Below, in pieces: positions 5,580 through 60,069 of a DNA stretch of 64,000 bases. The notes beneath the pieces were generated by a model. That model saw nothing but the letters and a program-made list of their open reading frames with translations, did no database searches and was not told the origin of the DNA. Source of the DNA: Omphiscola glabra (taxonomy: Eukaryota; Mollusca; Gastropoda; Lymnaeidae); the NCBI GenBank assembly GCA_964017045.1, contig OZ024798.1:24703347-24767346 (forward strand), read 5' to 3'. Within the stretch, counting starts at the first letter, position 1, and every line of letters starts with the position of its first letter. The position numbers and the translations under genes were made by a program.

Positions 5580-7440
5580 TGAAGATTTTATATATTTAAT
5601 ATATGTATTTCTGCTGGTGACAATGATAAGGTAATGAATAAGACATAGAGCACGCAATGTAAGGGAAAACACGAAGAAAGACGAAATCAAAACAAAGAAG
5701 TTATATCTTTAAAATTCAACCATCAGCTGAATCTTAGAGTCAGAAAGATTTAAATTGACCACAAACACTTGATCAGTCTTAACGTAACCATCGCTTTGAT
5801 CATCATCTACGTCCATTGCTTCATCCTCTGGCACATTTTCGTCTATGTCCATGTCTTCATTACCATCTGAATGCTCATTTATTTGGTGCAAATTTACACG
5901 GTGAACATGATCAGTTTGCTTATCAAGAAAGTGGATCCATGTCTTCATTACCATCTGAATGCTCAATTTTCTTTGCAAATTTAAATGGTGATTATGATCA
6001 GTTTGCTTATCTAGAAAGTGGATCCCACAGTTTTGACGAGACCTGATAGCATTGACAGATCGTTTACAAAGTCGTTTAGTTTTCATTTTTTGTACGATTC
6101 GTCGACATCTGTTCATCTCTAAGATAAATTTGCGGAGTTTCTTTCCTGCCATCTCGGCAGGTTGCTTTTGAAATACGCCACAGGTGTGGTGGTTATCTAC
6201 GCTTCACTGGTGACAGTTTAGCGGTCACGAATCGCTTGTTTTGTGCCGCTGATAATTGGAGGGATTTGGAAAGATTTTCAAAATTAGTCATGATTTAATG
6301 ATAACGTAGGCCTAGAATTTCCTCTTATAAAAATGTTTCCATCTATTTTAAAATACATAAAGTTCCAAATTATAACAATTTTTTTTTTTTTAATCTAGCA
6401 AAATTGTCAAAGTTAAAATAATATAAACTATTGTATAATGCGTACAGATATTAGGTTAGTTAAATTTGATACATTATTGTTATATTTATTTAAGTAATTG
6501 TGACATTTTTTTGTACGGTGCATAAATGTTTGAATTCCAGATGATTCTTTAGAGATTTAAAGCACTTGAGTTTATACTTTTTGAGGGGACTTGGATTTTA
6601 AAATGTATACTAATGGCAACTTTCGGTTAAATATAAAAGAGGAAATAAGGAAGTTACTAAATTTAGAATATAACACCACCATGTTATCGCTAGCTTCAAC
6701 AATCGATAACATTCATGTTGATTCTTATGAAGGGTGAAATTGCTAGTTTGCAAAATCTGAATATATATATCGTTGGATCAACCCTCCACACCTTCCTTTC
6801 TCTCTATCTAAGCTTGTAGCAGTGGTTGTTAATATTTCAGCACATATACATCAAGTGCATCGCAAAGAAATTAACCACACACACAGAAAAAAAAAAAATT
6901 CGAAGGGAACAATTTTTAGTTTTAAAACAAATTCAATTATTTTAGTGTCTCAGTTGCTTTTCCACATTGAGTAGTCGCACATAACTGAAAACTTGTATTT
7001 AAAAAGACAGTCATCTATTTTATTTTCGGCGATAGCATTTTAAAATAAGTGTCTTTACTCTACATAGTGCTGAAGGCAACACTGGGAGCGCACGGCTCAG
7101 TGGATTCATTCAAACGTGTTCTTTTCCTACGCCCAAACCAACGATATAGCCTGGCCGTGGGAGAGAAGCGACCAGCACGAAAAGAATTTTTCTTTCTTTC
7201 TTTCTTTAAATCAAAGTAGCAGATCGGGTTAGAGACGTCTGTGTATAAAAAACCTCTTCTTACCTGTTTTTTACAAATAATGTTTGTCGATCGTCTTTAT
7301 CGCCTGTAACTTTTGAAAATATATTCATGGGATCTGAATAGCATCGAGTTTTCGTTTCTGACAGGCTAGGATTTCTTGTGTTCCAATGTGTCAGTCGGTT
7401 ATCTAAATACTATGCGTGAAATGCGAAATTATGCGCGATT
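5580..7440. repeat. Duplicated segment, copy 2, interrupted
   Basis: Matches 2230-2780 at 5580-6200 and 2766-2990 at 7209-7440. The intervening 6200-7209 has no counterpart in copy 1 and shows no gene; it contains a short (TTTC)n tract near 7190. Confidence 0.65.
5709..6152 (-). CDS. Unknown small protein, basic N-terminus and acidic C-terminus
   Basis: A 147-residue open frame starting in a good context (gccgagATGg). The N-terminal 45 residues are strongly basic (MAGKKLRKFILEMNRCRRIV). The C-terminal half has acidic runs (GNEDMDIDENVPEDEAMDVD) and ends in a VFVVNLNL segment. I do not recognise a family. A related copy lies 3.3 kb away (2365-2708) but has lost its start and is frameshifted. 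Residues about 53-82 arose by a local duplication: the same nucleotides are read once as HSDGNEDMD and once, shifted, as SIQMVMKTW, and the frame remains open. Homologous flanking sequence extends well outside the frame, so the whole locus was duplicated. It could be one exon of a longer gene or part of an unrecognised mobile element. Confidence 0.4.
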   Translation of the reverse strand: MAGKKLRKFILEMNRCRRIVQKMKTKRLCKRSVNAIRSRQNCGIHFLDKQTDHNHHLNLQRKLSIQMVMKTWIHFLDKQTDHVHRVNLHQINEHSDGNEDMDIDENVPEDEAMDVDDDQSDGYVKTDQVFVVNLNLSDSKIQLMVEF

Positions 7441-17440: not shown

Positions 17441-17928
17441 TAACATTCTTCTTCTTCTTCTATATATTAAGGGCCCACGATCAATTTATTGATCATTATG
17501 GCTCCTATGAATGTAGATGGGATTTGCAATGCCTCTGTGCCTGGTGTTGATGAGGATATTTCACTGGTTAAAAGAGTAACTGTTTGAGTGTATCATGCAC
17601 TAGGGGTTGGAAGGCCTGAGGCAATAGACGCAAATGAGTCAAGTGTTGTTGCCTCAACGGTTCCTTTTGGAAGCTTGTTCCAGTCCCTGATTGTCTTTGG
17701 TAGGAATGAGAAGTTCCTATACTGGATTCTCGCTGGTATGAGCCGGAACTGCCTGTCATGGCCTCGTCGCTGTCTATGGGGGAGAGGGACGAGTTTCTGT
17801 TTAATGACAGAGCAGTGGACTAGCCCATTATTTATCTTGTAAATCATGGAGAGCCTGGACTGTCGTCGTCGTTCCTCCAATAGTGACCTCGAACATTCTG
17901 ACCAGCCATCTGCAGTGCATAGACACAC
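17441..17928 (-). mobile_element. 5'-truncated LINE, end of ORF2 and 3' tail
   Basis: Minus-strand frame 17928-17593 reads as the extreme C-terminus of a non-LTR (CR1/jockey-like) reverse transcriptase: EERRRQSRLSMIYKINNGLV, then RNFSFLPKTIRDWNKLP, ending LPTPSA and stop. The 3' UTR contains a palindrome (tgatcaataaattgatc near 17480-17496), followed by a (GAA)n tail (17447-17463), typical of target-primed insertion. Only the last 111 residues remain, so it is inactive. Confidence 0.8.
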
Positions 17929-20868
17929 GTTAAATAAATCTTATATTGTTAAAAGCCTAAAAAATTACATGACTATTTAAACACATTATTATTTTTTAAT
18001 ACTATAATAAGCGCTCAATTTTTAAGATTAAAATTTTAATAGCGAAAACATGATCCGGGGCGATTAAGTTCATTTGACATCGCTATTCCAGGCTCTTTAT
18101 TTTTAGGTTTCACTATGCCAAAAAAACATTATATCTATTTATGTGTAGTGTTCTCGGGTTGGAAAAAGGGGTGGGGGGAGGGAAATTCAAAGTCCGCTTC
18201 TGGTGGCACAGTTTCCGCTACACTTACAACACACAAAACAGTTGGCTTTACGTTTTAGCATTTTAACAAATTTAATATTGCGAACAGAAAAAGTACACAC
18301 TTTGAGAAATTGTTACTTTGGGAGCTGATTTTTTTCCCTTCTATTTATAATGAAAAGCAAGACAGAACAAAGTAAACAAAAATGGCGTGAAAAGAAAACA
18401 CACTAGAAAACAACAAGAAGAAATGTGGTAGGGCAACTTATGTCTCCTGGTTGACTGATTTTTAAAAATAAACTTGACGGGAGGAAAAAAAAAACACCCT
18501 GGGAGTTGTCGCTCCTGACGATTCATTGGTGGGTATTTTAGTAACTTGACATTCAGGTTTCCATTGGCGTAACACAGAATAGGGCCACCCTCGGTGTGGA
18601 GGAACTTAACATCTAGAAATTTCTTGTTATGGAATTTTCAGTAAAAATCAGAACTGAATGACGTTGGCATAGAAAGAGAAAACACACTAATCATTGACTG
18701 CACACTGGACGTGTATGCTCCTGACACATAAATTCTAAAATAGATAACACATACATTTATAGTTTTGTTTTACCAATTTATAGTCAAACAATGTGTAATA
18801 ATTAAACAGTAATCGTGTCTCTGTTTAAAAAGAAAAGATTCTTTAATTTTTTATAAGTTTTACAGCAGAGCCGGGCCTGGCGCTATTTTCCCCTGCATGA
18901 GGCAGGACGATAAAGTTTGTAACATTATGACTAGGGTCAGAGTGTCCAAATCGAGGCGGGGATTGAAAAAAAAAAGGGGGGGGGGGGTTTGCGACAAAAT
19001 TGGTTGGAAAAAAAATTAAATCAATTATATTAAAAATAAATTTGTTTTCAACATCAGCTGTATAATCATTTTTTCCACCACCAAGTGCCATTTAAAAAAA
19101 AAAGCAATGAGGTTTGCTGAAAGTTCTGTTCTCCGTTCTTCCGCAAAGCATATACGCCCCTGAAGAGTCCCATCGCAATGAATGTCTCAGACGGTGGGTT
19201 TATAGACCATTTCAGGGGATGCATTGCATCTTAGTTTACTCAGAATTATAAAAAAAAGGGGGGGGGGGCATTTTGTTGTTTGGCATTGTGGGGCGTCATG
19301 CAGTAGGCTACACGAAGTAGACGCCACAAAGCAGGTTGATTGAGATGATGTCCCAGCAAATGTAAGTAGTCTGATCGATTAAATGGGTTTATGGGTTCAG
19401 TTGTTTCATGTCTTATTAGTTCTCTCGTGTTACTCTTCACCTCGGCTGATGCTTTATTGCTTTTTATTATGGAAGTTTTTTTGATTTCACGATTTTTATT
19501 TTCATCTTGGTTGAGTTAAAAAAAAACACGATTTCTTGACTTGTGAGTCTTGTTGGGTCTTATGACCCCCGACCTCTCCCCCACTTTCGCTCGGGAGAAA
19601 ACTGTGTGGACAACATCTCATGCGCCCCGTCGATCAAAGGTGACAGTGACTGGCATCCTTCTCTATTGTACAAAATGCACTGATAATAAATGTATATATC
19701 GTTAAATTTCAATTTTAACCATACAATTTATTTACATGTGTGTTGGCATAGAGGGGTAAGTTTGCTTAGCAACAAAGAACAGGTGTCCAACCTTACAATA
19801 ATCCTAAGCATTGACACGTACAGTAGTGTATATTATATAGATATACATTATTTTATTTGTTGTGCTGAGACTAGACAGCTCATATAGCAAGTGTTTATGT
19901 AGACAGTGGAGACTATAGACAGCTAAGATAATCAGTGTTTATGGAAACAGCTAAGATGGCCAGTGTCTACGTAGACATCAGAGACTAGACAGCTAAGATT
20001 ATCAGTGTTGATGTAGACAGCTAAGATAATCAGTGTTTATATAGACAGCTAACATGGTCAGTGTCTTTGTAGACATCAGAAACTAGACGGCTAAGATAAT
20101 CAGTGTTTATGTAGACAGTAGAGACTAAACACCTAAGGTGGACAGTGTTTGTGTAGACACTGGAGATATGGGCCAATATTGCCAACGATGTTATAAGACA
20201 TAAAATACTGCCCTAGAAATTTAAAAAATATTTAATGATAGTTCCCTATCTTTATTTCCTTCGATGGTATAACACACGGACTGACACTTCAGTATTCCCA
20301 TTGATACAGTGGCATAGCTAGGTTTAGTTTTAATATTTTCATAGATGGTCCCACTGTAATAAAGACTGACAGTTCAAACGTTTCATAGATAGTCCTATTG
20401 TTATAAAGAACGACGGCTCACCATAGAACAAAGTTAACCGAGGGACATAACTGCCGTTGATCAATACAAAAGACGGGATATCTTTCTTAATTTTATATAC
20501 TTCAGTTCTCTAGCACACAACACGCAAAAAGCGGTGACTGCTCTACAGGTATGGGAAATGTCCTCCTGTGTGTCACCAGAGAGGTAGTGAGAGAAGGGGG
20601 CGGACTGTTGCTCTATTTCTCAAAATAGACACAAGGAATTAAAAATCTGCTGCATTCATTGAACAATCACTAAGCCGACTGAAGGTGCATGGATGAAACA
20701 TTTTGGACTTAAAACGAAATTTGTACTGGAAATTCACCAGACCAGGTCGCTTACACACGTGATGATGTCACGTCAATGTGCTCTAACGTGATCACACCGG
20801 GCGGCTATATCGAGCACAGCGCCATAAACTGACGTTTGACGTTTATGTAATGACTACATTATATTTGT
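17929..20868. other. No gene seen
   Basis: AT-rich, with G/C homopolymer tracts near 18978 and 19260 that look like transposon remnants, and the irregular array listed separately. A segment at 19880-20165 is repetitive; the rest is unremarkable. Confidence 0.5.
19869..20165 (+). repeat. Irregular array of about 42 bp
   Basis: Repeated agacagctaagataatcagt and gtttatgtagaca with deletions. Confidence 0.7.
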
Positions 20869-29903: not shown

Positions 29904-32900
29904 ATGGACTCACTGTTGGCTCGTGCTGCGAATGTCGTGTTCAATTCGCCCATCACGGGAGACGACTTCGTGGACAGACTCCATTACTTCGTCACCGTCG
30001 CCATCCTGGTGTGTTTCGTCATCGGAACTGGGTTGCAGGTGAGAAGGTCGTGGTGTCATTGAAAGGTCGTGGTGTCTTTGAAAGGTCGTGGTGGCATTGA
30101 AAGGTCGTGGTGTCATTGAAAGTTCCTGGTGTCATTGAAAGGTCGTGGTGTCATTGAAAGGTCGTGGTGTCATTGAAAGGTCGTGGTATCATTGAAAGGG
30201 AGGAGGGTGTCTCATGGCCCCCGGGGGGTTGGAATCATTTGCATGTGAAGCTTTATATGCATAGTGTTAATATTGCTAAAGTAGACAAATATACCGTATT
30301 TAATATTGGAGACACAGAAATGCCAATATTCAAAAGTGGCATAGGCAAAGCAATTTTTAGAAACTTAAAGGAGGGGTGGCATTATTGTCCTATTGTAGAG
30401 GTTATTTGTGAAAGAAGGGAGGATCGTTGACCAACCACGGGTGGCAGAAGACCTAACTAATAATGCCATCAGCAAACTCGTTAATTAATATAAATGGCAG
30501 AAAATACAACTGCAAGGCAAAGTTTGCATGTCAATGCCACATTGGCTTGGTTAGTGCACAATAGGGGTTACATGTTAATGAAATCTTTGTTTGCTTAGTG
30601 TACAACAGGGTTATATGTCTATGCCACATTGGCTTGGTTAGTGCACAATAAGGGTTACATGTCAATGACATCTTTGTTTGCTTAGTGTACAATAGGGGTT
30701 GCATGTCTATGCCCCATTGGCTTGGTTAGTGCACAATAGGGATTACATGTCAATGACATCTTTGTTTGCTTAGTGTACAATAGGGGTTACATGTTAATGA
30801 CATCTTTGTTTGCTTAGTGTACAATAGGGGTTACATGTCAATGCCACATTGGCATGGTTAGTGCACAATAGGGGTTATATGTCAATGACACAATGGCTTG
30901 GTTACTGCACAATTGGGGTTATATGTCAATGACACATTGGCTTGGTTACTGCACAATAGGGGATACATGTCAATGATACCTTCCAGTACACCAGTTCAAG
31001 AGTATGTGAACGTTGCAACCTGTCAGTGAACGAATCCGTGAGTTTTACAATCCAACATATCTTTCTTTAGTCTGCAAACCTAAAGATTTACTCCCCCAAA
31101 CATTAGAATTGGATATAAATAATCTCATTCAGACCATTCAGCATCACTCAATAATGACCTCTGACCCCAACCCCACACCCCCCTTTAGGAATATGTTGGG
31201 AACCCCATCAACTGCTGGACCCCGAACGACTTCCATTACGAGAGCTACCAGGCCCACGTTAACACCTACTGCTGGACACACAAGCTGAGGTATCCACAGT
31301 ACGAGAGGGAAGGGGTCATCAATCAGACGGAAGGTAAGGCCCGGGCCGACGTGAGGGCTCTGATCCCTTGCGACTTTTTACGGGGCCCGAAATGTCATGT
31401 TGGGGAAGGGGGGACGACTAGCCTTTCAAGGGGGTGGGGGCGTAAACCCTGAAATTGACAGTCTCGCGACGGCTCTGTCTGATTTGTATGTTAGAATTTG
31501 TTTGGGTTAACAAATTGTTATGTAGATAATTTAAAAGTCGTGATCTTTTTTAAGAATATTATATGAGTAGTTTTATGCGATGATTGGGTATGGTTTACTT
31601 TATGCGCATGTCGCTTTCAAATGTTGACAATATTATTTAATGTCGTAAAATATAAAAACTAATGTCTCTTGTTGTCTAAGGTTTCCCGTGATATCGATTA
31701 ATTATCACAAAACGTCGTTCACTGATCTAAATTAATTTAGTAGTCACACTCATCATGAAAAGATATCATCTCTCTAGGTCCGGTAGTTCTTTAGTCTCTA
31801 AGATAATTTATATATACAATTTCCCACTTTGAGCTTTAAATATAAAGATAGATAGATATACAAATTGCCAAAAGAATATATCATTAATTGATGAAACGTT
31901 GGGGTGCCATTTTTATGATTCCCCAGCCCCCCACCCCCCAGGCGCAGCTTTCCTTCAGCACGCCCCCATTCACAACTAGGCATCTTCAAGCATCCACGTT
32001 TGGATTTTTTCAGTTTCAGGGCAAGGGGTATTAGACGTGTCACGCCCACAGCCTCTGATTGACTTTGGCACCGCCTTCTTCCGGTGGGTGACGCTCATCT
32101 TTATAGTGCAGGTCAGTGCGGCATACTTAACTTAACACTACCCTGGACGGCTTGAAATCATGTGCGTGCTAAATATAAAAATAATTTCAATCCTAAAATG
32201 TCAGGGTAAACATGTTAAGAGAAGATAAGATAAGATTCTTTTATTGATCCAAACAAATGGAAATGTTTTTGATTGCATTGTATATTTTCAGCACATAAAT
32301 AAAACAATTTGAACACGAGACATCCACATTAAATTATTTCACTAGTGGAAAAAAAAACAGCCATTCAGTCAATTCTCTTAGACATAGTAGGGACATATTA
32401 GATCTCATTAAGATGTGTAAACATTAGTTGTTTGTATTGATTGTTCCTTCATCAAATGTCACGGTAAACATGCTCACGTAAACGTTAGTTGTTTGTATTA
32501 ATTGCTCCTTAATCAAATGTCACGGTAAACATGCTCACGTAAACGTTAGTTGTTTGTATTGATTGCTCCTTCATCAAATGTCACGGTAAACATGCTCACG
32601 TAAACGTTAGTTGTTTGTATTGATTGCTCCTTCATCAAATGTCACTGTAAACATGCTCACGTAAACGTTAGTTGTTTGTATTGATTGCTCCTTCATCAAA
32701 TGTCACGGTAAACATGCTCACGTAAACGTTAGTTGTTTGTATTGATTGCTCCTTCATCAAATGTCACGGTAAACATGCTCACGTAAACGTTAGTTGTTTG
32801 TATTGATTGCTCTCTCACCAAATGTCATGGTAAACATGTTCACGTAAACGTTAGTTTTTGTATTGATTGCTCTTTCACCAAATGTCACGGTAAACATGGT

Positions 32901-45106: not shown

Positions 45107-48100
45107 TTATTGCTGGCTGGCTTCTATGGTCATGATTCCCGCCGACTCGTAGAGCCTGACCAGCTCTGACTGATGCTCCTCGAATACTTCCTTCATGTTC
45201 TCCTCAGATATCATAAGGTCAATCGCCATCATGGCCAGCGCCTTGCCTTGTACGATACTCATAAACTCGCATTCTTTTGATCCTGTGAAACAACACATTT
45301 TTCCTTCAATTATTTCTCTCTTCATCTTAAAAAAAAAAAATAGTTCACGTTTAGTTTTCTTGTTAAAAGTATTTAGAATTTGTAAATGTTTTATCTCAAA
45401 ATACCAGAAAGATTTCAATAATTACATAATCTCGTATTCTTTTTGATACTTTAAATTTGAAAGTAGAAAGTATTGCTTTAACTTACTTTAAGTAGAAAGT
45501 ATTGCTTTAACTTACTTTAAATAGAAAGTATTGCTTTAACTTACTTTAAGTAGAAAGTATTGCTTTAACTTACTTTAAGTAGAAAGTATTGCTTTAACTT
45601 ACTTTAAGTAGAAAGTATTGCTTTAACTTACTTTAAGTAGAAAGTATTGCTTTAACTTACTTTAAGTAGAAAGTATTGCTTTAACTTACTTTAAGTAGAA
45701 AGTATTGCTTTAACTTACTTTAAGTAGAAAGTATTGCTTTAACTTACTTTAAGTAGAAAGTATTGCTTTAACTTACTTTAAGTAGAAAGTATTGCTTTAA
45801 CTTACTTTAAGTAGAAAGTATTGCTTTAACTTACTTTAAGTAGAAAGTATTGCTTTAACTTACTTTAAGTAGAAAGTATTGCTTTAACTTACTTTAAGTA
45901 GAAAGTATTGCTTTAACTTACTTTAAGTAGAAAGTATTGCTTTAACTTACTTTAAGTAGAAAGTATTGCTTTAACTTACTTTAAGTAGAAAGTATTGCTT
46001 TAACTTACTTTAAGTAGAAAGTATTGCTTTAACTTACTTTAAGTAGAAAGTATTGCTTTAACTTACTTTAAGTAGAAAGTATTGCTTTAACTTACTTTAA
46101 GTAGAAAGTATTGCTTTAACTTACTTTAATTCATACAATTTAAAATAAACAAAAACAATTCTGAAGGTGGTGTTTCAAAGTTGATACACGTAGTATCATA
46201 TATAACCATGAAACCATCACACACAGAGGCGTCACTACGGTTGGTGTCACCCAGGGTGGTAAACTCATGGTATGACCTCCTACTAAGCTACGCCCGCCCC
46301 CGACCTGCACGAGCAGTTCTGAACTAGATCATACAGAATCACGTCTGCCGGCAGCACTGTCAGTAGATTAAGAACCAAGACAACAAAAGACTTTGGCAAA
46401 ATATAGTTTGAACTAACAGGCCTTTAAATTCACAAGAACATTACTTTTAATTGAAACATTAAACGATTTTTATTTTACTGTTAAAACTTTCAAATGGTAA
46501 CAAGGTTAGGTATAAGGAAATAAGCCAAACAAAGAATGGGAAACCCTGAAAAAAATAATCGCAACAAATCAACGATACTACATTGCAGCTAAGTGTTTAT
46601 TATTTTAATTTTTTTCTGTTGTTGTCTGTTTGATGAAGTAGGCTTCTTGCCGACTCCGTTCGACATTTGGTTGCGTCATTTTTTCAGGTTTTCCTATACT
46701 TTATTTCCTTGTTAAAACGTTAATTTTCCGGTCTTTAAAGACATGTCCATCACTTCATCATAATCAACATTCTTCACCCTATCTCTTTCAATTGCGAAAA
46801 TCGCAAGACCAGAAAGCCAGGACTGCTCTATGGTAGATCGCCATTATTGCTTAATAAGCTTTGCTTTTGAAAAAAAACACTCTCAATTAAAAATCACGAG
46901 GAAGTCCCATTCAGCTATGAATATCACAAAGTAAAATAGTATCGATCTTTGGCTTCGTCGAAATTAATATCTAATGTCTAGTGAAACTCTGTCATGGTAG
47001 CACCCTGCTCTGGTGCACTCTGTTTTGGTGATACGTTGCTCTGGTGACACTCTGCTCTTGTATTTAACTGAGTTCTGTTAAGAAACCGACTCGAGCGAAC
47101 TCTGCAATGCTCCTTTTGGTGTCACACCTGTGAGGTACATTCGATTCAGTCCACACCCCCGCGCACTCTAGTGGCTCCACTGATCACTCACACCGATACA
47201 TTTATTAAAGCCTTCACCAAGACATTGCATAAATGCATATACTTATAAGGAGTCGAGTGGAACATGGGCCAGTTACTTGAGTATGTCTAGACAGGTGGTG
47301 TTGTGTGTCTCACCATTGGCTATCATTAAATGCTTTTAAATGAACATTTGAAAACTTAAAATAATTGCAAATCGAATTAAAATATTACTTACTATATTTA
47401 TTGGTTTTTTTTTTTACATAAATGTCAATAATGGACAGGACTACGCTGGGCAGGACACTTAGAGAGAATACCAAATGACAGAGAAGTGAAGAGGGTGCAT
47501 CACCAATACCCCAGAGGAAAAAAGGCTTAAAGGCAGACCTAGGCTTAGATCAGCGGTTCTCAACCTGTGGGTCGCGACCCCTTTGGGGGTCGAACGACTC
47601 TTTACCAGGGGTTGCTTAAGACCATCGGAAAACACATATACGCTACAGTTAGGAAGTAGCAACGAAAAAAAAATGCGTTTGGGGGTCGCTAAAACATGAA
47701 GAACTGTATTAAAGGTTCGTGGCATTAGAAAGGTTGAGAACCGCTGGTTTAGATGGATGATGTGGAAAAAGATCTACAACAACTGAGAATCCAAGCATGG
47801 TTAGGTCTGAGTGGAGGGAAGCAGTGAGGCAGGGCCAAAGCCCTACATGGGCTGTAGCGCCACATTGATGGATGGAAGGAAGTAGTGAGGCAGGCCAAAG
47901 CCCTACATGGGCTGTAGCGCCACATTGATGGATGGAGGGAAGCATTGAGGCAGGCCAAAGCCCTACATGGGCTGTAGCGCCACATTGATGGATGGAGGGA
48001 AGCATTGAGGCAGGCCAAAGCCCTACATGGGCTGTAGCGCCACATTGATGGATGGAAGGAAGTAGTGAGGCAGGCCAAAGCCCTACATGGGCTGTAGCGC

Positions 48101-51100
48101 CACATTGATGGATGGAAGGAAGTAGTGAGGCAGGCCAAAGCCCTACATGGGCTGTAGGCCCACATTGATGGATGGAAGGAAGTAGTGAGGCAGGCCAAAG
48201 CCCTACATGGGCTGTAGCGCCACATTGATGGATGGAAGGAAGTAGTGAGGCAGGCCAAAGCCCTACATGGGCTGTAGCGCCACATTGATGGATGGAGGGA
48301 AGCATTGAGGCAGGCCAAAGCCCTACATGGGCTGTAGCGCCACATTGATGGATGGTCAATAATGTGATGGTTATTATATTCTTAAACATTTATTTTGCTT
48401 CGAATCTGTAATTTATAAATCTGAAATCATTTCTTTAAATCACACATTTTGGTAAAAAATATCAAATATCTTGAATACATATTTAATATTATGTACTTCT
48501 GATCATAACAACTGATTTCATCTTTAATATCTCTATATCCATCAACCTATCTACTAACGTAATCACTATCACACAATAATGACACACTATTAATCTATCT
48601 ACTGAAGTAATCTTTATCTATAGACCCATCTGCTGACGACATCTAAACCTATTAACGTAAAATGTGTTGTCTTCTGAATTTGATTGTACCTACCAGCATA
48701 TCTGCTGAATTTGATTGTACCTACCAGCATATCTGCTGAATTTGATTGTACCTACCAGGATATCTACTGAATTTGATTGTACCTACCAGCATATCTACTG
48801 AATTCATCTGTGCCGACCTCCACAGATGTTCCAGCGTAGTAAAATACTTTGAGCGTTGGCACAGAAGTAGTCATATTGGCAATGTCATCGGGGGCCTGGC
48901 AACACACAACAGACACGTTGTCAAATAAAGGACAGCATGGTATGAACAATGAAAACACCACGGAAAGCAGTTTAGCATTAAAGTCAAGTCAATGATAGAT
49001 CTTTAACATCGTGTTTATCAATTAGTCATTTAAACGTGGACACTCTTGAGACACTAGACTAGTACGTTCATGGAACATTATAAAAGATATAGTTTAAGTT
49101 AAAGTGACGGAGAGTTTAGATATAAATCAATTATTACTATTTTAGTTGCATTGTATGAACTTTTGACCAAATGTTTTCGAAGCTTCAAACAAGACGTACA
49201 ATTAGACCGAGAAAAAAAAGGGGGGGGGGGGTGCGGAAATGTCCTCCGATGGGATTCAAATAAGGGTCTCACCCTTGTCAGGCGAGTGCGGACTGAACAC
49301 CCTAACACCGACACGTATCGTCAGAGATCAACCGTTAAATAAACACCATATATTAACAGAAAAATATATGTTTCATGCAATCTTTTTTTAAAATTAAATC
49401 TTGTGATGAAGTGCCCATAAAGTTCCTAACTATAGGGAAACGATTATCAAAACGTATAATTCCCACTGCGTACTTACACTTGGTCAATTACATAGATGTT
49501 ACATGTGAGATCACTACTATTACCTCAGAAAGATGTTACAGATGAGATCACTACTATTACATCAGAAAGATGCTACAGATGAGAGCACTACTATTACCTC
49601 AGAAAGATGCTACAGATGAGAGCACTACTATTACCTCAGAAAGATGCTACAGATGAGAGCACTACTATTTCCTCAGAAAGATGCTACAGATGAGAGCACT
49701 ACTATTACCTCAGAAAGATGCTACAGATGAGAGCACTATTACCTCAATTCCCTTTTTCTTGTTGTGGAACGTAAACCCCATGAGAGCCGCGTTGTGCTTG
49801 TAGAGCTCCACCAGCCGGTGGCACGTGACGTTACAGAAAAACTCCTTCACGGTGGCATCGACCTCAAACTGTTTCAATATACGGATGGTGAAGATATAAT
49901 AAATCTAATTCAAAAACATATGTATCTCGTTTCTGTGAACAACACAGATTGAAATGAATCCTACACAAGAATTTTAAAAGCACACGGACTTGTAGTTATG
50001 ACGGAGACAGCCAAAAGATGGCATCAATGCTCAAAAGGGGGGAGAAAATGTGCGCATTTGCCGTGGATTTTCCCCTTAAATTAGATAAAAACTAAAATCA
50101 TGTCAACTGCCTTCTTCAGTTTTTACGTCTATATCTTCTGTATCTATTGCACTGGTGTTCCACCCACCCTTAATAGTTTATGAAGGTCCATGTATCCACA
50201 GAGAATAGTGTATCAATGTTTAATTATTTTTCTCCTTTGGGTCAAATTAAAAAAGATCATCCAAAAATTTGTCAGCTGTTAAAATCTTTTTTCCTTCACG
50301 CATCCCCCGTCCCCGTTTTTTTTCCTTCTCCATTTAAGGGCATTACCTCTTACCAAAAACAAACTGTCAAGACACTGTCATTGATATTCTCAGAAACCCA
50401 AACTCACCCTACACCCGCTCGCAATCGCCGCGGCCTCGTAGCACCTTTGTAGCATTTCGTTGACAATTTTCATCTCGACTGGCTTGGGGGCCTTCGTCAT
50501 GAACTCCATGGACGCGAATTCTGGCATGACGTCTGCTCTAGACCCCCCATCACAGATTATACCTGGCGGTAATAGACCGAAGAAAGCGTTTTAAAAAACC
50601 CGTCTCGTCTGTGGCTAACCCCTCAGAATGCTTTATGAACGATCTCCTCCTTTCTGTTTGGAATACCGGTATTATTTCTGTGCAAGAGCTTCTCTTATCA
50701 AACACATTTAGAGTTTTTTCCCCACAGATTTCAGTAATATTACCTTGAGCAGAGTCTGAACAATCCAACCGTTACCTTTGACTCCCTGAAAAATCCAACC
50801 GTTACCTTTGACGACCCAAACAATCCGACCGTTACCTTTGACGACCCAGTCCTCTTTGAACTGCTGTCTGATGGCCGCTATGTTTTGGTACGCCAGCACA
50901 ACTGCATTCACGGGGTTGGCAACTTCCCAGGGGCGGTCCCCATCCGGTCGACTTCGTCCACGAAATATAACCTTGTTCCTTGAAAAATGTCAAATTATAT
51001 TATATTTTGAATTCTTCCTTTTTTTTTAAAAATCGTGAACAATCATACCATTAACCGTACATTTTATATGAAATGCACTTATGTCACTGTCGTCAAATTT

Positions 51101-54100
51101 GAGGTATGAATTGTCCGGCTGCACAGCTGGTCAGGGCGTTAATGCGCTGCGCGGAACATTTTGGGTTCATCGGGAGGTGAGTGAGGTTTTTCGACAAAAG
51201 TTGCATTCACTTACTGTTCCATTAGATTTCCCTTTCGTTCATATAACCCCGTTTTTTTCTTTTCACCACCTCTTACGTATGGATGAAAATAATGCTTAAC
51301 TATGAATATGTGTTCCTCCGTTTTCAAAAAATATCTAACATTTTTCATTTCACTACTGGCTACTGGCAGCTAGATCTATACATCGTTGACAAACGTATTT
51401 CCGTGCTCAAGATGCGAGAATTCATGTATTGTATATATAGGTGAATATATATCATTATAGAAATAATCCTTTTAAGTGTTTGTTGTTTTCTTGGGTGGGT
51501 GGGTGGGTGGGTTGGGGGGGGGGGGTTTCCGCACTTTTGGGAGTTCACCTCAGTTGAAATTGTGTAAAGGTTCACGTCTGCGTTGGACGATTTCCTTTCA
51601 ACTTAAAATCCAAACCAGCAGTGGGTCAAACTTACATCTGCATGCCCATGAACTGGGGCTTGATGTTTGTGTGGTGGGATGGGTAAGCCGTCAGCAGAAA
51701 GTCAATGCCCTTGAAGCAGCCTTCGTCAAACATCAAGATCTTTCCAATGTTGTCTGCATGCCCGGAGCATCCTATCACGGTCACCTATAGATGGAAAGAC
51801 GAACAATTTTTAAGGTCTCAGCCAATGTGCCCTTTATATATATATAATTTTAAAGGTTTAATTCAACAATTCTAAAGGATACTGAGATAATCTTTTAAAA
51901 TCGGACAGATCACATCATGTCTCATGACGAAGGGTATCCCAGTTGAGCTCTCCAAGATGTTGGGATGATCTTTAAGACTGACTTCAAATAAGTCGACATA
52001 AGCCAATTAAATGTCAAGATAATAATATTTTTAATATTTCCTCGATGAAGGGCATAACGATGTATATATATTAAAAATAAACTCCTCATTATAAAGTAAC
52101 GAAGGTCATAAATACTCTTTTTTATAAAGTTGTTTCTTCTCTTATCAATAACATAAAAAGTATCTGCGGCTAAAAATCAACACGTAACAATTATATAGAG
52201 TCAAATATTTATTTCACCCCCCCCCCCCCCGGGTCCCCCTTTTTTTTGGGAACGCAAACAAGTCTTGTAATTACGATTCACGAGAGTTACGAGACAGATC
52301 TTGTCAAATGTTTACTTTTTTTTTTTTTAGTCTTTGAACATGTTGGTTAACCTGGGCTGAAATGTTGAAACAATTTACACGTGAAATAGAACAAACATTA
52401 TTATAAAACGTTTTTACAAACGTTATTTATATTATTTATAATATTTGCTGAATGTTTAAAAAACAACAAACAAACGATAGTTTATTTACCATGCCAATCG
52501 GCTCTGTAGCAAATTTGATGACCGTCTGCAGACCCAGGGCCGCTGTCAGAGCCACAACTGTGACCAGATTGTGTCCACGAGAGTGACCAGTGGCGTCGTC
52601 TGCATCGTACTGACATAGGAAGCCTATGTTCGGATGTTCAACGCCACCGACCTCACCCTCGCCAAATTCGGCCCTGGAGACACAAAAGGCAACCATGTCA
52701 AATGAATTATCCAAAATATGTGGTCAATTGGAGGCCTGTAATGAGAACTTAGCGGCTGTAATGTGTCTAGTGGCGGCCTGTAAGGGGATCATCGAGGCTA
52801 TTATATACTGTATCTAGGGTAGGCCTGGCAATGCTCCTTACTTGCCAACCATCCTATACAACAATCTGTAACAAAGCATTACAGTGAAAGCTAATGCAGC
52901 CGCTACATGCTATCGTATGGTAATGGCATCTGCGAACTACTAGCACCGAGTACTGATTAGCAGGCGTTTGACTCTCAGCTGGGGCGAAGAGATGCACAGA
53001 CGTCAAAAAGGATGACTATTACCGTCATCTAGTAGGTGATGCCCTTTCCCGTCCAGAGTCGAGTTTCGACGAGTTATCTGCATATTATATTCTCTACGTT
53101 CCAATTCATGTATTAATAAGACAATGCACTTGATATGTATGTTTATGTTAAGTACAATCTCCTGGAAATCGTGCTTGCTAGATATTGTTAACACAGTTAC
53201 TACTTACTGATATAATAGCGATCCCATGAAATCCTTTCACCTATTACACAAACACAACACATTACAGTGATTCTCCTTCCAATACACAAACACAACACAT
53301 TACAGTGATTCTCCTTCCAATACACAAAAAACAACACATTAGAGTGATTTTCCTTCCAATACACAAAAAACAACACATTAGAGTGATTCTCCTTCCAATA
53401 CACAAACACAAATACACATGCTCAACAAGACAGGATCCATGTGCTCAACAAGACAGGATCCATGTGCTCAACAAGACAGGATCCATGTGCTCAACAAGAC
53501 AGGATCCATGTGCTCAACAAGACAGGATCCATGTGCTCAACAAGACAGGATCCATGTGCGAGACAAACCTGAAAGATGTCTTGAAACCTTTAAAACGTTC
53601 GGTAACTTTAAAACCTTTCCTCTTCAGGAAACGGATGATCCGGTCGTGACATTTGTACTCTTTCCCTGGTTTCTCTCTCAAACGCCAAATATCTTTTCCT
53701 GGACATACAAAAGTTTTTCTTTTTTAACAGTGACTCCTAATGGAGTTTTGAAAAGTAACAAACGGGTCAGATTTAAAGGAGATGGCGTGTACTGTACGCC
53801 TATTGGATTAAATATACATAACTACATAAATAGAACTTATTGCAAAAATAAATAAATAAATAATAATAATTTATTCACAACGAAAGCCCATAACATTGTT
53901 TGTTGGATCGCAATTGATGAATGAACTAAATGTAGTGTTGAAACAAAATAAACAATGCTATTTAACATATTAAACGACGAGTGGCATAACTTAACCAGTG
54001 AAACATAAACCTAACCATATGACATAATAACTTTAAAGCCATAAACATAATATATAAACATATCAATGAGACGCATTCACCAGCCATTTATGCTTATACA

Positions 54101-54297
54101 TAAACGAATTGAACATCACACAGACGCACCAACTTACCTACAACCTAGCAATTTAGCCAGTGAACTTACCGCTTTAAACGAATACACCTACCAATGTTGT
54201 TGAGTTCATCCAGCTGTTGTTCTATAGCTGTAAACGCAATCTTTTTCTCTTCGGTTAGGATGGGTTCTTTCTCTTCTTCTGGCTTTTTCTTGGGCAT
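45107..54297 (-). CDS. PM20D2: PM20D2-like protein (M20 peptidase/amidohydrolase fold), nine exons, ligand residues mostly lost
   Basis: Exons on the minus strand: 54297-54192, 53698-53569, 52673-52490, 51784-51636, 50978-50836, 50562-50408, 49868-49743, 48895-48787 and 45282-45107. All are GT-AG with consistent phases, giving 425 residues, close to vertebrate PM20D2 (about 436). PM20D2 is described as a dipeptidase acting on beta-alanyl-lysine type side products. Landmarks: IWRLREKPGKEYKCH (39-53), GFLCQYDADDATGHSRGHNL (96-115), GCSGHADNIGK (145-155), RPWEVANPVNAVVLAYQN (205-222), GIICDGGSRADVMPEF (238-253), and C-terminal GSKECEFMSIVQGKALAMMA. By my recollected family alignment, the Cys of GHACGH is Arg111, the Glu-Glu pair is His149-Ala150, the His of ASHSA is Pro201 and the C-terminal His is Gly359; only His113 remains. 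The reading frame is intact through nine exons, so this looks like a pseudoenzyme and not a decayed gene. Four of eight donors carry tandem repeats. Intron 8 (3.5 kb) holds a LINE remnant, a SPIN element and two arrays. Confidence 0.92.
45461..46129. repeat. 29 bp array, very uniform
   Basis: About 23 units of aagtagaaagtattgcttta acttacttt with almost no variation, in intron 8 of the PM20D2-like gene, about 180 bp before exon 9. Confidence 0.95.
46224..47182 (+). mobile_element. hAT-like element (cagaggcgtcac family), copy A
   Basis: 959 bp; ends cagaggcgtcactacgg and tctagtggctccactg are inverted repeats. Flanks atcacaca and atcactca match at 7 of 8. No transposase frame is seen. Near 46995-47060 it has four rough repeats of a ctctggtg.cactctg type unit, equivalent in position to the 16 bp array of copy B. 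It lies in intron 8 of the PM20D2-like gene. Confidence 0.7.
47431..47815 (+). pseudogene. LINE ORF2 C-terminal remnant interrupted by SPIN
   Basis: Encodes LRWAGHLERIPNDREVKRV (the RWAGH motif common near the end of LINE ORF2), then GRPRLRW up to 47550. After the SPIN element and a frameshift it continues DDVEKDLQQLRIQAW. The following W-R-E-A-V-R-Q block, stop codon and gatggatgg tail are what the 60 bp array repeats. Confidence 0.75.
47551..47746 (-). mobile_element. SPIN-like hAT MITE, copy 3, inside a LINE remnant
   Basis: 196 bp. Begins cagcggttctcaacctgtgg and ends ggttgagaaccgctg. Flanks gcttagat (47543-47550) and gtttagat (47747-47754) match at 7 of 8. Removing the element and one flank restores a continuous LINE coding remnant. 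It lies in intron 8 of the PM20D2-like gene. Confidence 0.88.
47811..48352 (+). repeat. 60 bp array built from a LINE 3' end
   Basis: Nine units of exactly 60 bp (agtgaggcaggccaaagccc, tacatgggctgtagcgccac, attgatggatggagggaagc). The first unit continues directly from the LINE remnant at 47755-47815, and the unit spans its last codons, stop and tail. Confidence 0.92.
48671..48806 (-). repeat. 31 bp array copying the exon 8 3' end and donor
   Basis: Each unit repeats the last ~18 exon bases (attcag.agatatgctg) and the donor gtaggtac. Four candidate donors lie 31 bp apart; the first is the real one at 48787/48786. Read-through meets a stop after eight codons. Confidence 0.85.
49491..49745 (-). 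repeat. 37 bp array copying the exon 7 donor
   Basis: About seven units. On the minus strand each carries gag|gtaatag, the same junction as the real end of exon 7 at 49743; two copies have point changes in the donor. Reading past the true donor meets a stop in the first unit. Confidence 0.8.
50731..50850 (-). repeat. 30 bp array copying the exon 5 donor
   Basis: Three exact-length 30 bp units (50761-50850) and one diverged unit. Each contains the end of exon 5 and its donor: gtcaaag|gtaacgg three times, then ctcaag|gtaata. The units are open in the exon 5 frame, so using a downstream donor would add about 10, 20 or 30 residues without changing phase. Confidence 0.85.
53250..53412. repeat. 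38 bp array
   Basis: Four units of a ccttccaatacacaaa, cacattacagtgattct type, in intron 2 of the PM20D2-like gene, next to the 23 bp array. Confidence 0.8.
53418..53567 (-). repeat. 23 bp array abutting the exon 2 donor
   Basis: About six units (ggatcctgtcttgttgagca type on the minus strand). The first, diverged unit begins within a few bases of the donor at 53568, and its tttgtctcgcacatgg is the apparent parent of cttgttgagcacatgg. Confidence 0.75.
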
Positions 54298-56154: not shown

Positions 56155-58016
56155 GCAGCTATCGTCGTTCAGTGGAATTGTAACTCAACACAAATTGCAA
56201 CAACTTCTTTCCAAATACTATCCCAAAATATGCTATCGTCGTTCAGTGGAATTGCAACTCAACACAAATTGCAACAACTTCTTTCCAAATACTATCCCAA
56301 AATATGCCATCGTCGTTCAGTAGAATTCCAACTCAACACAAATTGCAACAACTTCTTTCCAAATACTATCCCAAAATATGCTATCGTCGTTCAGTGGAAT
56401 TGCAACTCAACACAAATTGCAACAACTTCTTTCCAAATACTATCCCAAAATATGCCATCGTCGTTCAGTAGAATTCCAACTCAACACAAATTGCAACAAC
56501 TTCTTTCCAAATACTATCCCAAAATATGCTATCGTCGTTCAGTGCAATTGTAACTTAACACAAATTGCAACAACTTCTTTCCAAATACTATCCCAAAATA
56601 TGCTATCGTCGTTCAGTGGAATTGCAACTCAACACAAATTGCAACAACTTCTTTCCAAATACTATCCCAAAATATGCCATCGTCGTTCAGTAGAATTCCA
56701 ACTCAACACAAATTGCAACAACTTCTTTCCAAATACTATCCCAAAATATGCTATCGTCGTTCAGTGGAATTGTAACTCAACACAAATTGCAACAACTTCT
56801 TTCCAAATACTATCCCAAAATATGCTATCGTCGTTCAGTGGAATTGCAACTCAACACAAATTGCAACAACTTCTTTCCAAATACTATCCCAAAATATGCC
56901 ATCGTCGTTCAGTAGAATTCCAACTCAACACAAATTGCAACAACTTCTTTCCAAATACTATCCCAAAATATGCTATCGTCGTTCAGTGGAATTGTAACTC
57001 AACACAAATTGCAACAACTTCTTTCCAAATACTATCCCAAAATATGCTATCGTCGTTCAGTGGAATTGCAACTCAACACAAATTGCAACAACTTCTTTCC
57101 AAATACTATCCCAAAATATGCCATCGACGTTCAGTAGAATTCCAACTCAACACAAATTGCAACAACTTCTTTCCAAATACTATCCCAAAATATGCTATCG
57201 TCGTTCAGTGGAATTGTAACTCAACACAAATTGCAACAACTTCTTTCCAAATATTATCCCAAAATATGCTATCGTCGTTCAGTGGAATTGCAACTCAACA
57301 CAAATTGCAACAACTTCTTTCCAAATACTATCCCAAAATATGCCATCGTCGTTCAGTAGAATTCCAACTCAACACAAATTGCAACAACTTCTTTCCAAAT
57401 ATTATCCCAAAATATGCTATCGTCGTTCAGTAGAATTGCAACTCAACACAAATTGCAACAACTTCTTTCCAAATACTATCCCAAAATATGCCATCGTCGT
57501 TCAGTAGAATTCCAACTCAACACAAATTGCAACAACTTCTTTCCAAATACTATCCCAAAATATGCTATCATCGTTCAGTGGAATTGCAACTCAACACAAA
57601 TTGCAACAACTTCTTTCCAAATACTATCCCAAAATATGCCATCGTCGTTCAGTAGAATTCCAACTCAACACAAATTGCAACAACTTCTTTCCAAATACTA
57701 TCCCAAAATATGCTATCGTCGTTCAGTAGAATTCCAACTCAACACAAATTGCAACAACTTCTTTCCAAATACTTTCCCAAAATATGCTATCGTCGTTCAG
57801 TGGAATTGTAACTCAACACAAATTGCAACAACTTCTTTCCAAATACTATCCCAAAATATGCTATCGTCGTTCAGTGGAATTGCAACTCAACACAAATTGC
57901 AACAACTTCTTTCCAAATACTATCCCAAAATATGCCATCGTCGTTCAGTAGAATTCCAACTCAACACAAATTGCAACAACTTCTTTCCAAATACTATCCC
58001 AAAATATGCTATCGTC
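56155..58016 (+). repeat. 74 bp array with trimeric higher-order repeat
   Basis: About 25 units of 74 bp. Three variants alternate: A (gctatcg, ggaattgtaac), B (gctatcg, ggaattgcaac) and C (gccatcg, agaattccaac), mostly in the order A-B-C, a 222 bp period. 222 is a multiple of three, which gives long open frames with no biological support. Confidence 0.93.
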
Positions 58017-58861
58017 GTTATTGTTATCCCAAGCGTTATTGTTTCGAAATGCTTAATTAAGATCTGATGATTTCAGAGTTGCCTTCTCTTAGATGATCTG
58101 CCATCCAAGGTTGTGTCCCATCCTTCTAAGTTTGATTTTCTGCAGTCCTAGAGACTGATACCTAGTACAATTAATTATTTTACCAAATATTCAGGTAATA
58201 TAATTTAATTATATTTACTTTTTATGTGACCATAAATATTCATGTTGTGCGGACCGGCAACTTAGGGCTCGTAAATCCGTCCCAGTCCACGGTCCGCCAT
58301 TTGAAGAACGCTGCTAATGCTATATAAAATGATGATTAATTGTTTTTCTTTTTTCCAACTCTATTTTTTTTTTAAATGGATACAACTTGAGCCAAAAAAA
58401 CTTAACATCAATTAGAATTATACATCACTCAAGACAGAAATGACAAGAAGAAACTATTAACCTTAATTGTTTCTGTTACTATATCTGGTTGTTCTATTTA
58501 AAGTCCACGGACAGCCGTGTCCTCCATGGACGGGAAAGCCATTCAAGTTCAGGATATGACGTCATGGGGGTGCATCCAGCGAGCTTCGACAACACCACAT
58601 TACATGACGTCATTGCTATCTTTTTAAAACATACATAAAGATATGTTAGATAAGCTGCTTTTACTTATGATTAAATAAATGGAAATTTGATTTGATTACA
58701 TTTGCACAAATTGTTGTCAGTCTTAAGAGTCTGAGTTTTCGTTATATTTTAAAATGTGTCTGTAGCAAGACGTTAGGGCAAACCATTGGTTTTTCGGAAG
58801 CCTTAGGCGTTAGGTGAACCATTGTTTTGGTAAGAAGAAGATAAAATGTTTGCTGTGTGGG

Positions 58862-60069
58862 CAGTGGCGTAGTGTGGGGGGGCAAGGGGGTGCATCATGC
58901 CCCGGGCGCTACTCACAAAGGGGCGCTAAATGAGAGGCATGATGTGGGGAGCCAGTGTTTCGCAGATGATACGCAACTATACAAGCATACCCATCCCTCT
59001 CTTGTAGATTCAGCTGTCCGGACTTTGCAGGAGTGTATTAGTGATGTCAAGTCATGGATGACACTCAGCAAGTTGAAACTTAACGATGACAAAACGGAAG
59101 CACTTCTTATTCATGATCACAAATCATCCTCTAACTCAGCTCTCCCCACCTCATTTCAAGTAGGTAACTCAGACATACAGTTTACATACTCAACTAGGAA
59201 TCTTGGTTATATTCTGTCTAACAAAATGTCTCTAGATAAACATATATCTTACATTTGTCGCTCTGCATACACTGCTATCCGTCAGATCAGCTCCATCCGC
59301 CACTACCTCACAGTTAGTGCAACAAAAACCTTAGTCTGTGCTCTTGTTCTCTCTCGTCTTGACTACTGCAACTCTCTTCTGCTAGGCTAGTTTTAAAGGC
59401 AAGAAAACGTGATCACGTCACACCACTACTTCATTCACTTCATTGGCTCCCTGTACAAGCACGGATTGATTATAAACTCTCTGTTCTGTGCCACCACTTT
59501 TTCTCGAATTCCTGCCCTTCATATCTAACCGAAATTCTCTCTGTCTATTCACCCCTTCGACAGCTTCGCTCCTCCGCAGACGATCGTATTCTTTCTGTCC
59601 CTGAGACTCGCACAAAAATATACGGTGAAAGATTTTTCTCTTACTGTGCCCCCAAACAATGGAATTCTCTTCCACTACACATCAGAAATATATCAACCAT
59701 CACAGCCTTCAAAACTGCACTCAAAACACACCTCTTTAAACTTTACTATCCTGACTGATTCCCCCTCTGAAAGTTAAACGAGGCTGCTGAGTGCCGTCCA
59801 TGGCTTCACATGTAAATTGTTATGGAATTGTTGGTTTTTAATTTATATTTTTTAAGTTCATTTTAATTTGCATGTACAGCGTGGTGAGCCCAGCCCTAGG
59901 CTGGGGTACCACGCTATAGAAAACTACCCATAATAATAATAATAATAATATATTTTACTATAACTATAATATTGTATGGTTTTCGAATAGGGGGGGGGCG
60001 CTAAAAAGGTATTGGGGGCGCTAAAAAGGTATTGTGCCCCGGGCGCGAGTTAACCTCGCTACGCCACTG
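58862..60069 (-). mobile_element. hAT MITE (cagtggcgtag family) split by a LINE
   Basis: Outer ends cagtggcgtagtgtggg and cgctacgccactg are flanked by a perfect 8 bp duplication, tgtgtggg (58854-58861 and 60070-60077). The two halves align with the complete element at 23968-24138 in reverse orientation. The break is after gcgctaaatg and before tatattttacta, where the LINE sits. Confidence 0.85.
58934..59948 (+). mobile_element. LINE fragment (CR1/jockey-like reverse transcriptase), nested
   Basis: Begins inside the reverse transcriptase at the FADD catalytic box (CFADDTQLYKH, the family's Y/FADD) and continues LSKLKLNDDKTEALLI and later LVLSRLDYCNSLLLG to a stop at 59388-59390. The continuing frame resumes just after (HSLHWLPVQARIDYKLSVLC; APKQWNSLPLHIR; LKTHLFKLYYPD, stop near 59757). 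A strong stem-loop (59878-59915, arms agcgtggt/accacgct and cccagcc/ggctggg) precedes an (AAT)n tail. It is 5' truncated with at least one internal stop, so it cannot move on its own. Confidence 0.88.

Follow-up and report, generated by a model that had tools for sequence, protein, structure and literature searches.

The minisatellites at donor sites of the PM20D2 gene of Omphiscola glabra are probably local tandem duplications in a genome dense in such arrays, some of them laid across exon-intron junctions and kept because the exon-proximal donor gives the normal protein. The evidence comprises the anatomy of the arrays, a reading frame that is intact and a protein that is conserved, similar structures at some other genes, and sampled rates at donors and acceptors that do not differ. 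For the most part the arrays look like a by-product of a tandem-repeat-rich genome, not like a feature special to donor sites. The window, i.e. the whole stretch of 64,000 nucleotides that was analysed (C5:24703347-24767346), belongs to an assembly of 745 Mb in 37 contigs.

The PM20D2 gene lies on the minus strand, with nine exons running from 54297 to 45107, a coding sequence of 1278 nt with an intact open reading frame, GT-AG borders in 8 of 8 introns, and phases that agree throughout. The encoded protein is 88% identical to that of Physella acuta and 83% identical to Biomphalaria glabrata PM20D2. The other genes placed in the window are an innexin (exons 1 to 4), whose main exon shares 96% identity with Lymnaea stagnalis innexin 6, and one Hsp20 exon; by eye, a further Hsp20 exon is likely. 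The exons needed below are as follows.

54192..54297, minus strand: PM20D2 exon 1 (from the ATG), gene model
53569..53698, minus strand: PM20D2 exon 2, gene model
52490..52673, minus strand: PM20D2 exon 3, gene model
51636..51784, minus strand: PM20D2 exon 4, gene model
50836..50978, minus strand: PM20D2 exon 5, gene model and protein alignment
50408..50562, minus strand: PM20D2 exon 6, gene model
49743..49868, minus strand: PM20D2 exon 7, gene model and protein alignment
48787..48895, minus strand: PM20D2 exon 8, gene model and protein alignment
45107..45282, minus strand: PM20D2 exon 9 (last, with stop), gene model
29904..30038, plus strand: innexin exon 1; the exon shows 96% identity with Lymnaea stagnalis innexin 6

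Five minisatellites, delimited with TRF, touch or adjoin donors of these two genes.

50756..50846, minus strand: 30-bp unit, 3 copies, across the PM20D2 exon 5 donor, 11 nt exonic
49494..49738, minus strand: 37-bp unit, 6.6 copies, at the PM20D2 exon 7 donor, TRF edge at +4
48670..48804, minus strand: 31-bp unit, 4.4 copies, across the PM20D2 exon 8 donor, 18 nt exonic
53419..53559, minus strand: 23-bp unit, 6.1 copies, 9 nt past the PM20D2 exon 2 donor
30044..30199, plus strand: 19-bp unit, 8.2 copies, 5 nt past the innexin exon 1 donor

The exon 5 donor, TCAAAG/GTAACGG (the slash marks the exon-intron border), recurs at +30 and +60, giving two intronic copies, and a diverged copy, CAAG/GTAATA, follows at +92. 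The exon 8 donor, ATGCTG/GTAGGTAC, recurs at +31, +62 and +93, with one of the three copies starting ATCCTG. All five intronic copies at these two exons have a donor score equal to that of the exon-proximal site. A DNA search of the own genome with 48600-48900, which contains the exon 8 array, returned only the self-match, simple repeats and very common words being skipped in such a search. The exon 7 donor, TTGAG/GTAATAG, is the weaker, borderline case, as the repeat takes in no more than the final three bases of the exon. Its short motif has six further copies between +34 and +219, four reading GAG/GTAATAG, one GAT/GTAATAG and one being without GT; the 22-nt junction window of this exon has no good copy (best 14/22, none at 70%). 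In neither the exon 2 array nor the innexin exon 1 array was a copy of the adjoining donor found, and in neither case is the junction spanned. The window thus holds two clear junction duplications (exons 5 and 8), one borderline case (exon 7) and two neighbours (exon 2, innexin). The original prediction of donor copies in three PM20D2 arrays therefore stands for exons 5 and 8, and for exon 7 it reduces to a repeated motif with just three shared exon bases. In line with its statement, the units of these three arrays look unrelated, and the arrays that it placed within 10 bp of the exon 2 and innexin exon 1 donors were found at +9 and +5. Copies within single arrays differ from each other.

Concerning donor choice, the Physella protein aligns to the predicted one without gaps from end to end, every junction included, as expected if the exon-proximal donors are used, and none of the five gastropod PM20D2 proteins aligned with the predicted one has an insertion at the exon 5, 7 and 8 junctions. 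Computed use of a downstream donor at exon 7 or 8 leads to a stop codon within 11 codons; at exon 5 the frame stays open and 10 or 20 residues are added. From frame and conservation we infer that the spliceosome would use the exon-proximal donor at exons 5, 7 and 8. A processed PM20D2 copy informative on donor choice was not found in a search of the own genome, where matches beyond the gene itself are distant, exon-sized and at most 44% identical. The PF07687 profile gave no match in the own genome despite the presence of the PM20D2 gene, in keeping with the fact that a profile search can miss split exons.

The origin of the arrays can be rationalized along these lines. Minisatellites would begin as tandem duplications, each local and a few tens of bases long, in a genome whose array density is very high. 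The duplicated segment would have crossed the exon-intron border at exon 5, at exon 8 and, to the extent of 3 nt, at exon 7, so that each further copy carried a donor, and slippage or unequal exchange may then have multiplied the copies. The copies sit in the intron and would leave with it, the exon-proximal donor making the normal protein, and arrays would persist because that donor still does so. The exonic part of the exon 5 unit encodes VVKG and that of the exon 8 unit EFSRYAG, and both match other snails wholly or nearly; since this is protein sequence common to other snails, copying presumably went from exon to intron, and most likely the exon is the source and the intron copies are derived.

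How unusual the window is can be judged from array counts. It contains 39 arrays (period at least 9, TRF score at least 50), which amount to 0.61 per kb and occupy 20% of the sequence, as compared with 0.42 per kb in kinesin loci and 0.54 in P450 flanks; the 30 P450 loci come from single-exon matches and served for array density only. Two large P450 clusters, with the domain within one open exon, were seen at C13:8.3-8.5 Mb and 15.9-16.4 Mb. Of the 12 placed donors, 5 have an array edge between -30 and +20 nt; none of the 12 acceptors does, the closest edge there being 178 nt away. Around the Hsp20 donor and acceptor and the ends of innexin exon 3 the arrays are at least 300 nt away, and placement shifts of 1-47 nt there leave the counts unchanged. 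At a background of 3.1%, 5 of 12 donors has a chance of about 2e-5 in a window picked for its pattern, and the comparison with the 160-exon sample described below (Fisher p 0.001) likewise concerns a window selected after the fact. With about 11,600 such windows and 12 donors each assumed, one would expect 0.2 windows of this kind at the 3.1% background and 3.6 at the sample donor rate of 5.6%. The window may be a chance-like cluster or a local hotspot.

Several other features of the window were recorded in passing. At 56158-58019 lies a 74-bp array with 25 copies, whose units, by eye, alternate among a few variants in a higher-order pattern. Two copies of an acidic protein sequence (LCKRSV..AIRSRQNCGIHFLDKQTD..) are found on the minus strand at 2368-2646 and 5712-6203, the latter carrying an internal 87-bp duplication (5848-6025); neither has a Pfam match. 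Open reading frames at 17596-17940 (minus strand) and 59007-59760 (plus strand) look by eye like retroelement coding sequence, and Pfam gave no match for 17596-17940 and 59007-59390. Rfam at gathering thresholds gave no match in the window.

Donors and acceptors were compared across 160 exons of about 50 genes of the same genome, namely 110 kinesin exons (from 132 matches) and 50 myosin head exons (from 84 matches). Of 115 kinesin exons taken, 110 were used, five rows without sequence or without a 100-nt flank being dropped. After the 30 best kinesin matches, further regions were mostly picked for close exons, which favours short introns and may lower the array rates at both exon ends. Splice sites were computed from the reading frame and a simple hand-written splice-site matrix; the neighbouring exon fixed the site for 71 of the 160 donors and for as many acceptors, and the remainder rest on the matrix. 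Random non-coding points, excluding those deep inside arrays, provided the background, which for array edges amounts to 3.1% pooled (3.8% in the window, 2.5% in the kinesin far flanks).

An array edge was found within -30 to +20 nt of 9/160 donors and 7/160 acceptors (Fisher p 0.80), and among high-scoring splice sites alone at 8/121 donors and 6/134 acceptors. Arrays spanning the junction occur at five donors and two acceptors (p 0.45). A displaced 22-nt junction-window test at two settings gave 5/160 and 6/160 donors, and 2/160 and 3/159 acceptors; its random background of 10-18% counts points deep inside arrays, is not comparable, and was left unused. Measured in this way, the distance of arrays to donors gives no significant excess over acceptors, and the proposed hotspot at donors rather than acceptors is not supported by these counts, nor by acceptor junctions that are themselves copied (L124, L125). 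The five donors of the original prediction were recovered, out of 12 placed donors rather than 13. Its observation that no array sits at an acceptor holds for the window; since arrays and junction copies do occur at sample acceptors, this absence is a feature of the window and not of the genome.

Some junctions elsewhere in the genome resemble those of PM20D2 in anatomy. At donor L083 the junction is copied in a 34-bp unit with 22 of 22 bases, and donor junction copies also occur at L108, L105 and L029, and weakly at L119. Among the five donor-spanning arrays of the sample, those at L083, L105 and L108 keep intact donor copies. At L096, a myosin exon (C19:19705369-19705521), the array spans the donor and has three intronic copies reading AAG/TTAAG, such that GT is present only at the true site. 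At L029, a kinesin exon (C10:29035164-29035310), the donor AAG/GTGAGCTC recurs 42 nt downstream, where the copy coincides with the start of a 39-bp array of 18.6 copies. On the acceptor side, the junction is copied at L124 and L125, with a poorer copy at L082. Outside the counted range fall the L029 donor (copy at +42), the weak L119 donor (copy at +113) and the L124 acceptor, whose array extends 36 nt into the exon. A 22-nt junction-window copy above threshold was found neither at L069, a donor-spanning array, nor at L109, nor at acceptor L008; the last is one of the two spanning acceptors, and its placement is uncertain, the pair fit being off by 30 nt.

Exon-intron junctions, donors above all, could be hotspots of duplication, owing for example to R-loops or replication stalling. 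The array edges at 5 of 12 window donors speak for this idea, as do the sample donors, which tend to exceed the pooled background (p 0.06), and the two junction types taken together (16/320, p 0.04; upper limit 8.0%, or 2.6-fold). This limit rises to 10.4%, or 3.4-fold over background, when donors are considered by themselves; taken separately, neither donors nor acceptors (p 0.22) depart significantly from the pooled background. Against it, donors and acceptors behave alike, the window was chosen for its pattern, and spanning arrays do not significantly exceed their background of 1.7%, at which about 2.7 per 160 are expected (p 0.14 for donors, 0.76 for acceptors). As an account of the arrays we regard such a hotspot as unlikely, and in its donor-specific form it was rejected as the main explanation, given 9/160 donors against 7/160 acceptors. 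The 5 of 12 window donors and the 16 of 320 junctions over background may still reflect a local hotspot or an effect of junctions that is modest in size.

It is far less probable that the donor copies are functional, i.e. that competing donors tune splicing or make protein variants such as an exon 5 longer by 10 or 20 residues. The equal donor scores of the five intronic copies at exons 5 and 8 would suit such a role, as would the exon 5 array, open in frame with its 30-bp unit, but distal donors at exons 7 and 8 run into early stops, the five other gastropod proteins have no insertion there, and the L096 copies are without GT. Tandem arrays are generally difficult to assemble, and repeats could have been collapsed or expanded, or exons misplaced; an artefact of assembly or annotation is nevertheless scarcely credible, given that array copies differ mutually, that the PM20D2 coding sequence is intact and conserved, and that similar structures occur at several of the about 50 sampled genes. 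Local duplication in an array-dense genome, with tolerance of what regenerates a donor, remains the preferred reading. Such tolerance, one of the explanations originally offered, fits the frame and the conserved protein obtained from exon-proximal donors, and also the finding that spanning arrays are not rarer than the array-edge background (5/160 and 2/160 against 1.7% expected).

What the sample adds is an estimate, with a background, of how often arrays contact donors and acceptors in such a genome. Only tentatively can it be extended to the statement that a few per cent of snail junctions, donors and acceptors alike, lie in or at arrays, many of them copying the junction, at about 1.6-fold over other non-coding DNA in the sample. 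If true, natural tests of spliceosomal choice between identical sites lying side by side would number in the thousands over the whole gene set, and junction-copying arrays would be standing raw material for new introns. The sample is in any case a concrete set for asking which of several identical donors is used.

In this context one should recall a minisatellite in an interferon-induced transcript, published in 1995, which reportedly belongs to gene 6-16 (IFI6), has units of roughly 12 bp and supplies donors that are used. By its title it resembles the snail arrays in supplying several splice donors; it differs in that its copies are reportedly used, the snail arrays being known from sequence alone. 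PMC2572611 and PMC3618361 both list the 1995 paper, on multiple splice donors in a minisatellite, among their references. Introns may also be gained when an AGGT segment is duplicated in tandem (Rogers 1989, Hellsten 2011, both through the potato RdRp paper PMC4974935). This route is similar in that tandem duplication multiplies splice signals, and dissimilar in that, going by that citation, the duplicated segment becomes a new intron, whereas in the snail an existing junction is copied, with no sign of a new intron. Among the literature matches listed (titles and abstract starts) for mirages, minisatellites and splice sites in molluscs there was no mollusc report, which is weak evidence of absence, most subscription journals being outside the coverage.

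Structures of the same kind as the snail arrays have been described before, in a different phylum. According to the available parts of the amphioxus reports, mirages are tandem duplications of exon-intron boundaries in Adh3, the globins BflGb6 and BflGb9, TnC and PGBD5; 5' and 3' boundaries are both affected, many units bear extra splice signals, copy number varies between haplotypes, and Adh3 data together with globin RT-PCR suggest that regular splicing is undisturbed (PMC3087553, PMC3902484). Units measure 10-72 bp in Adh3 and 150-160 bp in the globins, and it has been suggested that new introns can arise from mirages (PMC3087553); the originally suggested link between AGGT duplication and intron gain is reasonable as an idea. 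As far as those parts go, the snail units of 30, 37 and 31 bp fall in the Adh3 range, the unit spans the boundary at exon 5 (-11) and exon 8 (-18) and borderline at exon 7 (3 nt, TRF edge at +4), and frame and conservation agree with use of the exon-proximal donor. Donor copies (L083, L105, L108) and acceptor copies (L124, L125) both occur in the snail genome, the window having donors only. Unlike mirages, the arrays at PM20D2 exon 2 and at innexin exon 1 do not span the boundary, and the snail is a mollusc, with counts made on 160 exons against a background and with arrays known from the sequence of one assembly. The mirage reports, in the parts available, concern single amphioxus genes, and the snail arrays occur near the background rate, which suggests that junction arrays will appear wherever minisatellite turnover in a genome is high enough, and that a series of near-identical donors is something spliceosomes can handle.
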